Source of the DNA: Paeniroseomonas aquatica
Lineage (GTDB): Bacteria; Pseudomonadota; Alphaproteobacteria; Acetobacterales; Acetobacteraceae
Assembly: GCF_030409335.1 (NCBI RefSeq)
Contig: NZ_JAUFPN010000069.1
Location: 40,261 to 102,842 of the forward strand
Length of the DNA: 62,582 nt
Reading direction: 5' to 3'
The notes below the pieces were generated by a model, which was not told where the DNA came from, ran no database searches, and saw only the letters and a list, made by a program, of their open reading frames with translations. Shown here piece by piece: positions 37,479 to 59,624 of this stretch. The position numbers and the translations under genes were made by a program. How positions within the stretch are numbered: position 1 is the first letter of the stretch; the number at the start of each line of letters is the position of its first letter.

Positions 37479-38375
37479 ATGTCTGACGACGTATCCCTGG
37501 TGATCCTGCCGCGCGCCCATGACGTGGGCGGCTTCGAGGTACGGCGCGCCCTGCCGGCCCAGCAGCGGCAGATGGTCGGGCCCTTCATCTTCTTCGACCA
37601 GATGGGGCCGGGCGAATTCCTGGCCGGTGCCGGGCTCGACGTGCGGCCGCATCCGCACATCGGGCTCTCGACCGTGACCTACCTGTTCGAGGGCTCGATC
37701 CAGCACCGCGACAGCCTCGGCTCGGACCAGCCGATCCTGCCGGGCGACGTCAACTGGATGACGGCGGGGCGGGGCATCACCCATTCCGAGCGCAGCAGCG
37801 CCGAGAGCCGGCAGGCGCGGCGCAGCCTGGCGGGCATCCAGTCCTGGGTGGCACTGCCCAAGTCGGCCGAGGAGACGGCGCCCGACTTCGCCCACCACGC
37901 CGCGGCGAGCCTGCCCTTCGCCGAGGAGGGCGGGCTGGCGCTGCGGCTGATCGCCGGGGAGGGCTGGGGCATGCAGGCGCCGGTCGCCGTCTCCTCCCCG
38001 CTGTTCTACGCCGATGCGGTGCTGGCGCCGGGCGCCTCGGTGCCGATGCCGGACCAGCACGAGGAACGCGCCGCCTATGTGCTGGAGGGCGAGGTGACCT
38101 CCGGCGGGGAGACGCATGGGGCGGGGCGGATGCTGGTCTTCCACCCGCGCTCCTCGCTCGCGCTCAAGGCCGGGCCGCAGGGGGCGCGTCTGCTGCTGCT
38201 GGGCGGCGCGGCCATGGACGGGCCGCGGCATGTCTTCTGGAACTTCGTCAGCTCCTCGCGCGAGCGGATCGAGCAGGCCAAGGCGGATTGGCAGGCGGGG
38301 CGGTTCGCCAAGGTGCCGAGCGATGCGGTGGAGTTCATTCCGTTGCCGGAGAAGGTGCGGATTGGGCCGAAATAA
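37479..38375 (+). CDS. Pirin family protein
   Basis: 298 residues, bicupin. The N-terminal cupin carries the pirin metal site in HPHIGLSTVTYLFEG (His-x-His with a later Glu) and the MTAGRGITHSER block; the C-terminal cupin is diverged (VLEGEVTSGG). Bacterial pirins include quercetinases and redox-modulating proteins; the role here is open. Its stop at 38373-38375 directly touches the left end of a palindromic element. Confidence 0.92.
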   Translation: MSDDVSLVILPRAHDVGGFEVRRALPAQQRQMVGPFIFFDQMGPGEFLAGAGLDVRPHPHIGLSTVTYLFEGSIQHRDSLGSDQPILPGDVNWMTAGRGITHSERSSAESRQARRSLAGIQSWVALPKSAEETAPDFAHHAAASLPFAEEGGLALRLIAGEGWGMQAPVAVSSPLFYADAVLAPGASVPMPDQHEERAAYVLEGEVTSGGETHGAGRMLVFHPRSSLALKAGPQGARLLLLGGAAMDGPRHVFWNFVSSSRERIEQAKADWQAGRFAKVPSDAVEFIPLPEKVRIGPK

Positions 38376-38517
38376 GGAAGGTTGGGGAGAAGGTATTCTC
38401 CCCAAGCCCCTCATCTATTTCTGGGAGTTAGCACTTGCCGCGCGGCGAAGCCTGGACTCACAGAAAGCAAAGGTGGGGCTTGGGGAGGAAATGCTTTTTC
38501 CTCCCTAACCTTCCTTC
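38376..38517. repeat. 142-bp palindromic element, copy A
   Basis: Two flanking hairpins (TTGGGGAG at 38382 with CTCCCCAA at 38398; GGGAGGAAA at 38483 with TTTCCTCCC at 38497) enclose a centre containing the imperfect palindrome GAGTTAGCACTTGCC/GGCGAAGCCTGGACTC. The outer ends GGAAGGTT and AACCTTCC are also complementary. Copy B (53115-53256) has the same length and layout in opposite orientation. It contains no open frame and resembles a MITE or REP-type element. Confidence 0.85.
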
Positions 38518-38580: not shown

Positions 38581-39045
38581 ATGTCCGACGCACCCTTCCC
38601 CATTGCGATCGGCGGCGACCATGCCGGCCTGCCGCTGAAAACCATCCTCCAGCAGGCCCTGGCCGAGGCCGGCCATCCGCTGCTGGATTTCGGCACCAAT
38701 GCGACCGCCAGCGTCGACTACCCCGATTTCGCGCATGAGGTCTGTGCCGCGGTGCAGGACGGCCGGGCGCGCTTCGGCGTGCTGGTCTGCGGCACCGGCA
38801 TCGGCATGTCGATCGCCGCCAACCGCCATGGCGGGATTCGCGCCGCGGTGCTGCATTCGACCACCGAGGCGAGGCTTACCAGGGCGCACAATGATGCCAA
38901 TGTAGCGGCCTTCGGCGCCCGGCTGATCGGGCCCGAGGTGGCGATCGATGCGCTGCGGGCCTTCCTGGAGACCGAGTTCGAAGGCGGCCGCCATGCCCGG
39001 CGCCTCGCCAAGCTGGCACCAGATGCCATTCCTGCAAACGGGTGA
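38581..39045 (+). CDS. rpiB: Ribose-5-phosphate isomerase B
   Basis: 154 residues. Isomerises ribose-5-phosphate and ribulose-5-phosphate in the pentose phosphate pathway. The N-terminus [14 protein letters not shown], the active-site Cys in [17 protein letters not shown], and [15 protein letters not shown] match RpiB/LacAB. It starts 64 bases after the palindromic element and ends 4 bases before glyA. The rpiB-glyA-nrdR order is common in alphaproteobacteria. Confidence 0.95.
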
Positions 39046-40988: not shown

Positions 40989-41065
40989 TGGTCGGACCGG
41001 CGGGATTCGAACCCACGACCCCTTGTCCCCCAGACAAGTGCGCTACCAGGCTGCGCTACGATCCG
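40989..41065 (-). tRNA. tRNA-Pro (anticodon GGG)
   Basis: 77 nt. Read on the minus strand the acceptor arm CGGATCG pairs with CGGTCCG, followed by A and an encoded CCA. The D arm contains GCGCAGCCTGGTAGCGC, and the anticodon stem CTTGT/ACAAG encloses the loop CTGGGGG, giving anticodon GGG. The T arm has GGTTCGAATCC. It decodes CCC, a frequent proline codon in this GC-rich sequence. It stands in the gap between nrdR and the merR-type gene. Confidence 0.96.
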
Positions 41066-52337: not shown

Positions 52338-53111
52338 ATGCTGACGGTCTTCGTCGGCATCGTCTTCGCCTTTCTCATGCTGCCGCTGCTGGTGGTCTTC
52401 CCGATCTCCATCTCCTCGGCCGCCTACCTGCAATTCCCGCCGCCGGGGTTCTCCTGGCAATGGTACCAGCGCTACCTGAACGACCCCGGCTGGATCGATG
52501 CGACCATCCGCAGCGTGCAGGCGGCCAGCCTCTGCACCGTGCTGGCGATGGGGCTCGGCGTGCCGCTGTCCTTCGCGCTGGTGCGCTCGCGCCGGCGCTG
52601 GGTGCGGGCGCTGGACCGGCTGGCGGCGGCGCCGATCATCGTGCCGACGATCATCCTCTCGATCGCGCTCTATGGCGTCTTCAGCCGGCTGCAGCTCATC
52701 GGCGCATGGTATGGCGTGGCGGTCGCGCATACCGTCCTCGCGCTGCCCTTCGTCGTCATCCTGACCAGCGCCGGGCTGCGGACCTTCGATGAGGCGCAGG
52801 AGCAGGCGGCCGCCGGTCTGGGCGCCAGCTGGTTCATCGCGGTCTGGCGCATCACCTTGCCGCAGCTGCGGCCGAGCCTGGTCTCGGCCGCCTTCCTCGC
52901 CTTCGTCAGCTCCTTCGATGAGCTGGTGCTGGCGATGTTCCTCTCCGGCGCCTCGATGACGCTGCCGAAGAAGATGTTCGACAACATCATGATGGAGGTG
53001 GACCCGACCATCGCCGCGGTCTCCGTGCTGCAGATCTTGCTGGTCGGGGTCTGCCTCGGGCTGACCGCGCTGTTCGGGCGTGGGGCGCTTGCGACGACAA
53101 TCTCGCGGTGA
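52338..53111 (+). CDS. ABC transporter permease, polyamine type (second)
   Basis: 257 residues, PotC-like. The ATG at 52338 lies 13 bases after the previous stop; upstream in-frame starts would add an Arg-rich tail. Membrane helices at about 5-25, 60-80, 95-115, 130-150, 180-200 and 230-250. EAA loop GLGASWFIAVWRITLPQLRPS; SSFDELVLAMF follows. It is last in the ABC operon; its stop is 3 bases before the second palindromic element. Confidence 0.9.
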   Translation: MLTVFVGIVFAFLMLPLLVVFPISISSAAYLQFPPPGFSWQWYQRYLNDPGWIDATIRSVQAASLCTVLAMGLGVPLSFALVRSRRRWVRALDRLAAAPIIVPTIILSIALYGVFSRLQLIGAWYGVAVAHTVLALPFVVILTSAGLRTFDEAQEQAAAGLGASWFIAVWRITLPQLRPSLVSAAFLAFVSSFDELVLAMFLSGASMTLPKKMFDNIMMEVDPTIAAVSVLQILLVGVCLGLTALFGRGALATTISR

Positions 53112-53114
53112 GCA

Positions 53115-53256
53115 GGAAGGTTGGGGAGGGAAAGGTATTCCCTCCCCAAGCCCCACCTTTCCTTTTTGTGAGTCCGGCACCTGCCGCGCGGCAGGTGCCG
53201 GACTCAGAGAAATAGAGGAGGGGTCCGGGGAGGATACTTCCTCCCCGGCCTTTCCT
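53115..53256. repeat. 142-bp palindromic element, copy B
   Basis: Hairpin TTGGGGAGGG (53121-53130)/CCCTCCCCAA (53140-53149), a perfect 38-bp palindrome at 53169-53206 with CCGCGCGG near its centre, and hairpin CCGGGGAGGA (53225-53234)/TCCTCCCCGG (53239-53248). The left end is GGAAGGTT and the right part contains TCTATTTCTC reversed, matching copy A (38376-38517) in the opposite orientation. No open frame. Located between the permease gene and the FAD oxidoreductase gene. Confidence 0.88.
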
Positions 53257-53261
53257 GTTTC

Positions 53262-53273
53262 GTCGGTACCGAC
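53262..53273. repeat. 12-bp perfect palindrome upstream of the FAD oxidoreductase gene
   Basis: GTCGGTACCGAC, self-complementary, 24 bases before the ATG at 53298 and 5 bases past the 142-bp element. The position suits an operator, but nothing else supports that. Confidence 0.5.
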
Positions 53274-53297
53274 AATTTCCAGGACCAAGGGAAGCCC

Positions 53298-54626
53298 ATG
53301 GACCCCACCGTCTTCCATCCCGACTTCAAGGCCGCGCCCTACTGGTGGGACGACATCACCATGGGCGACGACCTGCCGCAGGAGCTGCCGGCCCGCGCTG
53401 ATGTGGTGATCGTCGGTGGCGGCCTCACGGGTCTCAACTGCGCCATCGAGCTCGGCCGCGGCGGTGCCCATGCGGTGGTGCTGGATGCGGAGCCGCTGGG
53501 CTTCGGCGCTTCCACCCGCAATGGCGGCGGCGTCTCCGGCGGCAACAACGTCGGCAAGGGGCTCTCGGGCGCCAAGGGGCGGCAGGGGGTGGAGGAGGCC
53601 AAGGCCGAGATGCGCGCCATCATGGCGGATGGCCTGGCCGGGCTGAACCACATCGAGGGGCTGATCGCCCGCGAAGCCATCGACTGCCACTACGAGCGCA
53701 CCGGCCGCTTCGTCGGCGCCTGGACGCCGAAGCACTATGACGGGATGGCGGCCAAGGCGGAGGTGCTGAACGAGCTGGCCGATGCCGATGCCCACATGGT
53801 GCCACGCGACCGGCAGCGGGAGGAGATCGCCTCCGACTACTACCATGGCGGGATGGTGGTGAACCGCACCGGCAAGATTCATCCGGCGCTCTATCACCGC
53901 GGGCTGACGGCCGCGGCGCGGAAGCATGGCGCGACGCTGATCGGCACCTGCCGCGCGGGCAAGCTGACCCGCATCGCCGAGGGCTGGCGGGTCGAGACGA
54001 CCAAGGGGCCGATCGAGGCCAAGGACGTGGTGATCGCCACCAACGGCTATACCGGCGGGTTGACGCCGGACCTGAAGCGCCGGCTGATCCCGGTCGCCTC
54101 GCATATCATCGCGACGGAGGTGCTGGACCCGGCGCTGGCCGCGAGCCTGATCCCGAAGCGGCGAACCTTGGCCGACAGCCGCCGCATCCTGTCCTACTAC
54201 CGGATGTCGCCGGATGGGACGCGGGTGCTGTTCGGCGGCCGCGCCCGCTTCACCCAGGTCTCGCCCGAGGTCTCGGCGCCCATTTTGCGGGAGATGATGC
54301 TGGCGCGCTGGCCGCAGCTGAAGGGCGTGCGCGTCACCCATGCCTGGACCGGCAACGTCGCCTTCGCCTTCGACGCGCTGCCGCACATGGGCGTCACGCC
54401 GAAGGGGCTGCACTACGCCATGGGCTGCAACGGCTCCGGCGTGGCGATGCTCTCCTACCTCGGCGCGGAGGTCGGCAAGAAGCTGCTGGGCGGGACCAAC
54501 CGCCTGCCGGTCTTCGACGGGCGGGACTTCCCGACCCGCGCCTTCTACACCGGCACGCCCTGGATGCTGCCGATCGTCGGCAATTGGTACCGCTTCCGCG
54601 ACTGGCTGGACCGTCGCGCGGCATGA
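53298..54626 (+). CDS. FAD-dependent amine oxidoreductase (gamma-glutamylputrescine oxidase-like)
   Basis: 442 residues. N-terminal dinucleotide fold VVIVGGGLTGLNCAIELGR, then LGFGASTRNGGGVSGGN (flavin region), a mid-protein GYTGGLTPDLKRR, and late GNVAFAFDALPHMG with SGVAMLSYLG that close the FAD site. It belongs to the DAO superfamily of amine and amino-acid oxidases; PuuB-like enzymes oxidise glutamylated putrescine. Context with the polyamine ABC genes supports an amine substrate, but no glutamylputrescine synthetase is present here. It overlaps the next possible start by 4 bases. Confidence 0.85.
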   Translation: MDPTVFHPDFKAAPYWWDDITMGDDLPQELPARADVVIVGGGLTGLNCAIELGRGGAHAVVLDAEPLGFGASTRNGGGVSGGNNVGKGLSGAKGRQGVEEAKAEMRAIMADGLAGLNHIEGLIAREAIDCHYERTGRFVGAWTPKHYDGMAAKAEVLNELADADAHMVPRDRQREEIASDYYHGGMVVNRTGKIHPALYHRGLTAAARKHGATLIGTCRAGKLTRIAEGWRVETTKGPIEAKDVVIATNGYTGGLTPDLKRRLIPVASHIIATEVLDPALAASLIPKRRTLADSRRILSYYRMSPDGTRVLFGGRARFTQVSPEVSAPILREMMLARWPQLKGVRVTHAWTGNVAFAFDALPHMGVTPKGLHYAMGCNGSGVAMLSYLGAEVGKKLLGGTNRLPVFDGRDFPTRAFYTGTPWMLPIVGNWYRFRDWLDRRAA

Positions 54627-57321: not shown

Positions 57322-58454
57322 TCAGACGTAGCCCGGGCCTTCGATGGCCGGATGCGCGACGAGGAAGCCCTCATCCACCTCCACCCCGATCCCTGGCGCA
57401 TCCAACGGCAGCACCATGCCGTCGCCGCCGATCCGCCAGGGCTCGCTGCCAAGTGCGTCGCGGAAGAGGTTGGCCCTGGAGACATCGGCTTCGAAATAGC
57501 CGGCATTCTCGATGGCGGCGAGCAGGTGGATCGAGGCGGCCTGGTTGACGCCGGTCATCGAGGAATGCGGGTTCACCGGGATCTTGAAGGCGCTGGCCAT
57601 GGCGGCGATGCGCAGCGTCTCGGTGATGCCGCCGCATTTGGACAGGTCGGGCTGCCAGATGGTAATGGCCCGGTCCTCCAGCACGCGGGTGAATTCGAAG
57701 CGGGTGAAGTGGTTCTCCCCGGCGGCCAGCGGCGTGCGGCCGTAGCCGGCGGCCTGGGCGTAGTGGTGGTGGTCGTGCGCGGGGAAGGGTTCTTCCAGCC
57801 AGCCGATGTCGAGCGCATCCATGGCCGGCATGACGCGACGCACGTCGGCGATGGTATAGCCGGTATTGGCATCGGTCAGGATCGCCAGCCCGTCGCCGAA
57901 GGAATTGCGCACGGCCTCCATCCGGGCGGTGTCGTCGCGCACGGTATCGCCGATGCGGAGCTTCACCGCGCGGTAGCCGGCCTCGATCAGCGGCTGCGCC
58001 TCGTCGATCAGCGCGGCGGGCGGCTGGTAGCCCAGCGCGACGCCGCCGGCATAGGCGGGGATGGGGCGGCGGCTGCCGCCGAGCAGCTTCCACAGCGGCC
58101 AGCCGACCGCCTTGCCCTTGATGTCCCAGAGCGCCATGTCGATGCCCGACATCGCCATGGCGCAGGCCGCGCCCATGCCGTGGCTGCCGAGCTGGTACTT
58201 GTAGATCCGCGCCCAGACGCCGGTGGTGTCGCTCGCATCCATGCCCAGGATGAGCTGGGTGAGCGTGGTCTCGATCAGCTTCGCGATGGCGGTATGGGCA
58301 CGGCCGTGGTGGCTCTCGCCCCAGCCCACGATGCCGTCCTCGGTCGTCACCTTCACCATGACGCAGTCGCGTTTCACGGATTGCCCGATGCCAAGCCGGA
58401 CGCCGCCGGGCGGGACGGGGAAGCTGGTCGGATAGGCCTTGATGGCGGTGATCT

Positions 58455-58458
<4 letters not shown>
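57322..58458 (-). CDS. Enolase-superfamily enzyme (mandelate racemase/muconate lactonising type), first copy
   Basis: 378 residues. The N-terminal capping domain precedes a barrel with the first general-base motif GYRAVKLRIG, metal ligands in LTDANTGY (Asp), WLEEPF (Glu) and AAGENHF (Glu), and the late His in NPHSSMTG. The KxR plus His pairing fits the mandelate-racemase subgroup of acid-sugar dehydratases and racemases, but substrate cannot be told. The ATG overlaps the next gene's stop (ATGA); it shares the fold but not close sequence with that gene product. Confidence 0.9.

Positions 58459-59620
<1,162 letters not shown>

Positions 59621-59624
<4 letters not shown>

Follow-up and report, generated by a model that had tools for sequence, protein, structure and literature searches.

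The three-armed hairpin element that lies between a permease gene and an oxidoreductase gene of Paeniroseomonas aquatica is one copy of a repeat that directly follows stop codons in many members of the Roseomonas/Belnapia group. For this element (copy B; Table 1), we estimate from sequence comparisons a probability of about 55% that it is a member of a dispersed, REPIN-like family that is kept almost exclusively behind stop codons and whose hairpins are predicted intrinsic terminators. All positions are those of the window, which is the whole stretch of 62,582 nucleotides that was analyzed. A preliminary description had placed copy B and a relative, copy A, directly behind stop codons, as the ends of the permease and pirin genes bear out.

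Two inverted units around a palindromic center

The building block of the element is a unit of about 45 nt that consists of a tail (AGAAATAGATGAGGGG), one or two bases, a hairpin (mostly 9–13 bp), CCTT and more T-rich sequence. An element is either a lone unit or two units in inverted order, with their CCTT ends pointing outward, around a center that is usually self-complementary. Pairs are 90–245 nt long (49 pairs) and may fold as a clover or a rod; in all 49 (14 in the P. aquatica genome and 35 in five other genomes), the left unit is on the minus strand and the right unit on the plus strand. The centers range from 3 to 151 nt, most of them fold, and they are alike between copies.

The stems covary. 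Among 108 distinct units from five genomes outside the training set of our covariance model (R2, made from 26 hand-picked units), 97.1% of cells are paired and 7 of 10 base pairs have changed on both sides, in an alignment that was fitted to the model's structure, which is somewhat favorable, and with one genome (G230) that shares its genus with a training unit (G010). The covariation score of these units is 0.422, compared with 0.175 after shuffling and at most 0.202 with slid partners. What is kept would be the structure rather than the exact sequence.

Table 1. Positions of copies A and B, their parts and their neighboring genes in the window
Feature	Position	Strand	Basis or remark
Copy B, whole element	53114..53256	.	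Outer stem AGGAAGG/CCTTTCCT closes three arms (clover fold); RNA fold z −12.0 and sequence
Copy B, left unit	53117..53166	-	R2, 41.4 bits (C280:93377-93426 minus offset 40260)
Copy B, left-unit hairpin	53121..53149	.	12-bp perfect stem, 5-nt loop
Copy B, center	53169..53206	.	Perfect 38-nt palindrome, tip of middle arm
Copy B, right unit	53208..53252	+	R2, 72.4 bits
Copy B, right-unit hairpin	53225..53248	+	10-bp perfect stem, then CCTTTCCTGTTTC
Extra ~41 nt between copy B and next start codon	53257..53297	.	Also missing at relatives' empty sites
ABC transporter permease gene (PF00528), upstream of B	52338..53111	+	Stop codon 53109-53111
FAD-dependent oxidoreductase gene (PF01266), downstream of B	53298..54626	+	
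Copy A, whole element	38376..38516	.	Center decayed
Copy A, left unit	38378..38422	-	R2, 72.0 bits
Copy A, right unit	38462..38512	+	R2, 36.6 bits
Pirin gene (PF02678/PF05726), upstream of A	37479..38375	+	
rpiB (PF02502), downstream of A	38581..39045	+	

The clover fold of copy B has an energy of −116.5 kcal/mol versus a shuffle mean of −64.3. Its center is exactly its own reverse complement, as had been described, and is the sole perfect even palindrome of at least 18 nt within the window, where about 7e-6 palindromes of 38 nt would be expected by chance at 72.4% GC. Two perfect 10-bp hairpins had been described on its flanks; the right one has 10 bp, but the left one has 12. The arms of this center agree at 17 of 17 positions, which makes it the only perfect one among 18 hand-picked long-center copies (chosen from the P. 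aquatica genome and two genomes of genus g25; rows L225 and L229 are on another axis). Since the consensus left and right arms of the 17 other copies, with B left out, already agree at 16 of 17 positions, copy B looks like the best-preserved copy of a center that was palindromic in the ancestor, and repair of a quasi-palindrome, which we considered as the origin of its perfect center, was rejected as unnecessary.

The center of copy A is decayed but recognizable, as described earlier, with arms that agree at 8 of 17 positions; in the computed fold of this copy (z −5.8 against shuffles), one unit pairs with the other. Similarity between A and B extends along 85 nt, at 84%. Since both halves of the element are the same unit in inverted order, it is nearly its own inverse, and the opposite orientation of A and B, to which weight had been given, means little: either orientation aligns, with 81% identity on the minus strand and 77% on the plus strand.

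A smaller palindrome (GTTGGACGC and GCGTCCAAC, separated by 0 to 6 nt) is nested at the tail/hairpin junction of some units (L300:1501-1520; also L295, L301, L302, L305, L299, L223, L150 and L230). Exact matches number 21, in 5 of 12 genomes, versus 0 for a reversed control pattern; 4 of the 11 loci read (L296, L298, L303 and L304) appear to lie outside units, and a sister species lacks a variant of the palindrome in its orthologous copy (L078 versus L028). Elsewhere in the window, two adjacent minus-strand genes (57322–59624) carry stretches 72–83% identical and about 1.1 kb apart (D10 and D12), which are probably a tandem paralogue pair. No curated Rfam family matched the element at gathering thresholds, and the sole Rfam match in the window is a tRNA gene (40992–41065, minus strand).

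Copy number, placement and insertion

Rather than the two copies first noticed, the P. aquatica genome (6.5 Mb) holds elements in at least 39 places. An initial search gave 26 matches and R2 gave at least 71 at E up to 1, with the best 150 of 3,379 candidates scored. With echoes removed, 53 units remain, comprising 14 pairs and, as singles, 15 units on the plus and 10 on the minus strand. This census took in 60 of the 71 matches; 10 of the dropped rows are opposite-strand echoes, and since the remaining one (C269:10262) is a real unit interrupted by the nested palindrome (L300), 39 is a minimum, although 10 of the 39 places rest solely on matches under 25 bits. Lone units make up 25 of the 39. 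A second, diverged hairpin lies beside five of them, in four cases barely above the best of 20 shuffles; as the other 20 show no second hairpin, mostly with too little space for one, we rejected the idea that lone units are degenerate pairs.

Within the bacterial family to which P. aquatica belongs, R2 matches 48 of 299 genomes (P. aquatica included), in 18 of 102 genera, in a search with stricter filters that scored the best 21 candidates per genome. Eight genomes searched deeper, with the best 150 candidates scored, gave at least 150, 140, 114, 61, 32, 30, 27 and 6 matches, echoes included. Across 385 genomes sampled from the class, at least four of them from the same family, the sole match at E up to 1e-4 was the P. 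aquatica genome itself (best 16 candidates scored in each). Carriage by phages was rejected, as neither viral contigs, searched with one exact 34-nt pattern, nor phage records gave a match. Against plasmids, the complete copy B gave no match and a unit consensus gave one, which led to four plasmids of Pseudoroseomonas cervicalis.

That placement relative to genes is non-random had been proposed from two copies, and mapping all places found bears this out. With genes called by our own codon-usage script, in place of a standard gene finder, the 39 places in P. aquatica fall into 23 convergent, 15 tandem and 1 divergent gap, with none flagged within genes; a stop codon lies at most 15 nt away in 36 of the 39, and in 26 of the 29 that have a match of at least 25 bits. 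In the five other genomes (G297, G233, G237, G035 and G230), 81 places were sampled, of which 38 are convergent, 41 tandem and 2 divergent, with none flagged in genes; 62 have a stop codon within 15 nt. That second census comprised 78 loci from the upper part of the match list (L133, L141 and L149 of G137 were unused) and 116 of 153 matches. Set aside were L146, which shares sequence with L263, and 36 rows scoring below 24 bits. Most of these rows are echoes, but no fewer than three (L237, L262 and L265) are genuine partner units, such that a few pairs were counted as singles.

Overall, then, divergent gaps hold 3 of the 120 places, and no place was flagged within a gene call. Among neighboring genes remote from elements, 16 pairs were convergent, 147 tandem and 40 divergent (n = 203; element gaps were left out by mid-locus position, and a few second elements remained), such that divergent gaps are depleted (3/120 versus 40/203, p 2e-6) and convergent gaps enriched (61/120 versus 16/203, p 4e-18), with places treated as independent in both comparisons. 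In 18 of the 23 convergent gaps of P. aquatica and 23 of the 38 of the other genomes, neither stop is more than 15 nt from the element, which thus fills the gap. In tandem gaps it lies nearer the stop than the next start, with medians of 6 versus 30 nt (n = 15, P. aquatica) and 5 versus 38 nt (n = 41, others).

The four P. cervicalis plasmids, whose genes are annotated by NCBI and thus independent of our gene caller, have three of four places filling convergent gaps and one in a tandem gap; of the convergent matches, one touches the final 29 nt of a gene annotated as hypothetical and another overlaps the end of a helicase gene by 4 nt. One of these units (L306:2496-2570) lies between genes for alpha-2-macroglobulin and pbpC and has a very T-rich outward end (CCTTCTTCTTATTTTTATTTTATTT); the strain has similar stretches on three further plasmids, each within a convergent gap.

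How did the element arrive at copy B? In the window, 186 nt separate the permease and oxidoreductase genes, whereas in seven relatives with a permease in front (L086–L091 and L126) the spacing is 7–9 nt. For L092 it is listed as 16 nt, with a match that starts at residue 5, and is 7 in the printed sequence; the more distant L094 has 12, and L093 and L097 are without such a neighbor. This comparison covers 11 of 41 oxidoreductase loci, one genome (G004) repeating L126, and no units were found near the oxidoreductase gene of the named relatives in the 18 of 41 loci scanned. Copy B starts 2 nt past the stop codon, at an unchanged permease end, and no target duplication is visible at this site, which is the sole clean empty site. 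As the relatives have neither a hairpin nor room for one, a whole element arrived there, and this comparison identifies copy B as having inserted into an operon. For copy B, the empty sites likewise show that members of the family have moved as DNA inside genomes. Of the earlier suggestion of insertion at transcript ends, insertion behind a stop codon holds for copy B; for copy A, synteny is lost and no empty site is demonstrable among the relatives. The extra nucleotides that follow copy B, up to the start of the oxidoreductase gene, contain a palindrome (TCGGTACCGA) and are either part of the insertion or a later change.

Candidate terminators and the alternatives

At positions 4–11 past the stem, beyond the modeled CCTT, the outward T fraction is 0.34 in P. 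aquatica units and 0.40 in units of other genomes (37 of 53 and the best 84 of 116 units, respectively), and further out it is 0.14 and 0.13. Outward runs of at least three Ts occur in 12/37 and 50/84 units, versus 0/37 and 1/84 in a control stretch; runs of at least four occur in 1/37 P. aquatica units. Inward of the stem, the T fraction is 0.25 and 0.27 in the first 12 nt and reaches 0.63 and 0.64 at nt 9–20 because of the conserved tail. We therefore rejected the idea that T-richness is confined to the outward side, and the inward T-richness slightly lowers our confidence in the favored reading. In a consensus scan, the right-unit hairpin of copy B is terminator-like in the outward sense, as is the left unit of copy A on the minus strand, both near chance (1 found versus 0.4 and 0.6 expected, respectively, the former in shuffles).

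The junction between gap and pgk, which like gnd and the FAD oxidase gene were named by eye, was read at 18 of 30 loci. The element is present in G000 and G007, an unrelated GC hairpin in six congeners, and terminator-like hairpins in G010, G018 and G021, from three other genera; six genomes have 5–24 nt and no hairpin. G022 has a single unit there, with an atypical end of the upstream protein, and its junction may differ. For termination, we counted the T-rich stretches beside the hairpins and the other hairpins at this junction in relatives. Against it, we counted the short T-runs in P. aquatica, the two-sided T-richness, the near-chance scan matches and the several lone units in tandem gaps whose CCTT end points toward the upstream gene.

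Most likely, these are REPIN-like mobile elements that serve as putative terminators or 3′-end hairpins. In RNA, each hairpin would be an intrinsic terminator, more canonical at the outward end of its unit. A pair would then comprise two terminators that face outward, and a transcript from either side would run through the whole element before it ends at the far side; between convergent genes, one pair would serve both, and each message would end in a structured 3′ end. If copy B terminates fully, the oxidoreductase gene behind it loses the operon promoter; no sigma-70-like site was found in 52900–53500, which likewise counts against termination.

Placement behind genes is also compatible with a tolerated parasite. 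The alternative that survives best, if an unlikely one, is that the element is a parasite only, in which case REP-like elements would insert anywhere and survive behind stops after selection purges genes, operon junctions and promoters, with no benefit to the host. The patchy spread among family genomes, the range from 6 to at least 150 matches in the deeper searches and the insertion into an otherwise tight operon would all fit, and tagged REPs are placed likewise in the available excerpts of their description (PMC3733652). However, the stems covary, and sites have been kept: one is common to four species of one genus (G022, G136, G190 and G232), and the gap between the FAD oxidase gene and gnd holds elements in three species of two genera (L060:1496-1640, L134:1492-1662 and L153:1484-1580). 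On these comparisons some element sites are old. At sites common to several species, hairpins are kept while centers change and, since neutral remnants would lose their stems, this argues against a parasite alone.

Less probable is a role as a 3′-end RNA stabilizer or processing site, in which the hairpins stop 3′ exonucleases or serve as RNase III cleavage sites and so tune the expression of upstream and downstream genes within operons. The very stable clover or rod folds, with their long intramolecular duplexes, and the location between same-strand genes (for example, gap–pgk and permease–oxidoreductase) are consistent with such a role, but T-rich flanks on both sides, and immediately outward, suit termination better. 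Stabilization and termination are not exclusive.

It is also conceivable, at lower odds again, that the sequence spreads, in place of transposition, as existing terminators recombine homologously or undergo gene conversion with one another, in which case the apparent mobility would be terminator replacement. In the FAD oxidase–gnd gap, the left units of G000 and G297 are alike and their right units are of different subtypes, as if halves had been exchanged, and at gap–pgk the element takes the position of the congeners' other hairpin. Against this stands the site of copy B, where the relatives have no hairpin to replace and 7–9 nt between the genes. Finally, a MITE of a DDE-type insertion sequence, with the inverted units as terminal repeats, would account for the inverted pairs of 90–245 nt and the demonstrable insertion but is very unlikely, given that lone units are common (25 of 39 places, 5 with a second, diverged hairpin), the ends are variable by eye, no target duplication is visible at B, the recurrent neighbor genes include no transposase in their first residues, and the center is self-complementary and alike between copies.

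Relation to known repeats and the mode of spread

Ordinary bidirectional intrinsic terminators consist of a GC-rich hairpin and T-rich sequence between convergent genes. Unlike these, the elements described here are one repeated family, often with two separate inverted hairpins, that is dispersed by insertion. No prior description of the element in Roseomonas or Acetobacteraceae was found in the open-license literature. Lichenicola, the genus of L. cladoniae, is acetobacterial. A survey that counts palindromes in L. cladoniae does not name the element family in its available excerpts (PMC12306157).

The closest likeness is to REPINs, which are described, in the excerpts available, as inverted doublets of hairpin repeats with a self-complementary spacer that shows compensatory changes, with hairpin and clover folds and with lone repeats (Bertels and Rainey, 2011; PMC3116915). 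Our family shares the inverted doublet, the pairing spacer, the singles, the clover fold and the nature of a dispersed, extragenic, multicopy family. It differs in its T-rich hairpin flanks, in that no Y1 transposase was found in 19 of 20 element-bearing genomes, and in placement, since REPINs are described in those excerpts as random in extragenic space whereas the present family is not.

GTAG- and CGTC-tagged REPs are intergenic hairpins that occur as singles and inverted dimers near the 3′ ends of both convergent genes, and the excerpts available describe the CGTC repeats as lacking a dedicated transposase and as missing in Acetobacteraceae (Di Nocera, 2013; PMC3733652). Like these, our units have stems of similar length, occur as singles and inverted dimers and, in convergent and tandem gaps, lie no more than ~20 bp from 3′ ends. 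However, no GTAG or CGTC (TGTC, CCTC) tag was seen by eye beside the hairpin, which is instead bordered by the conserved tail GATGAGGGG and, opposite it, by CCTT; unit alignments have GAGGGG-YY before the stem and CCTT after it. The YPAL/RU-2 repeats, compared by description only and from excerpts (PMC2229807), are intergenic, structure-forming repeats of ~168 nt that are predicted from empty sites to have been recently mobile, with target duplications of 3–26 bp; these are alike in being intergenic, structured and mobile by the empty-site criterion, but host and organization differ.

What moves the element? A search for the RAYT/Y1 transposase (PF01797, Y1_Tnp) gave no match in the P. aquatica genome and none in 18 of 19 other element-bearing genomes (19 of 20 in all), the sole exception being G297 with two matches; the same search was positive in 5 of 14 control genomes. 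We therefore rejected an origin from RAYT/IS200. A recurrent neighbor gene as mobilizer was rejected as well: the 15 largest neighbor clusters, judged by eye from their first residues, contain no transposase, and the largest resemble tripartite-transport binding proteins and ABC ATPases. One tentative proposal, which we rate below the parasite-only reading and above the stabilizer, is that the elements are self-spreading terminators. A mobile unit that is itself a working terminator might spread without RAYT/Y1, through a host single-strand process or an unrelated enzyme, take over the 3′ ends of genes and displace native terminators. REP and REPIN repeats usually go together with RAYT transposases; with a REPIN-shaped family flourishing in genomes where none was found, the question of the mover becomes testable.

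The covariance model and the site list would aid annotation of these genomes, and the hairpin-plus-T design suggests a reason for the location behind stop codons. If the reading of copy B and its family as predicted terminators is true, a GC-rich bacterial group builds its terminators partly from mobile DNA, and insertion can rewire the 3′ ends of operons.
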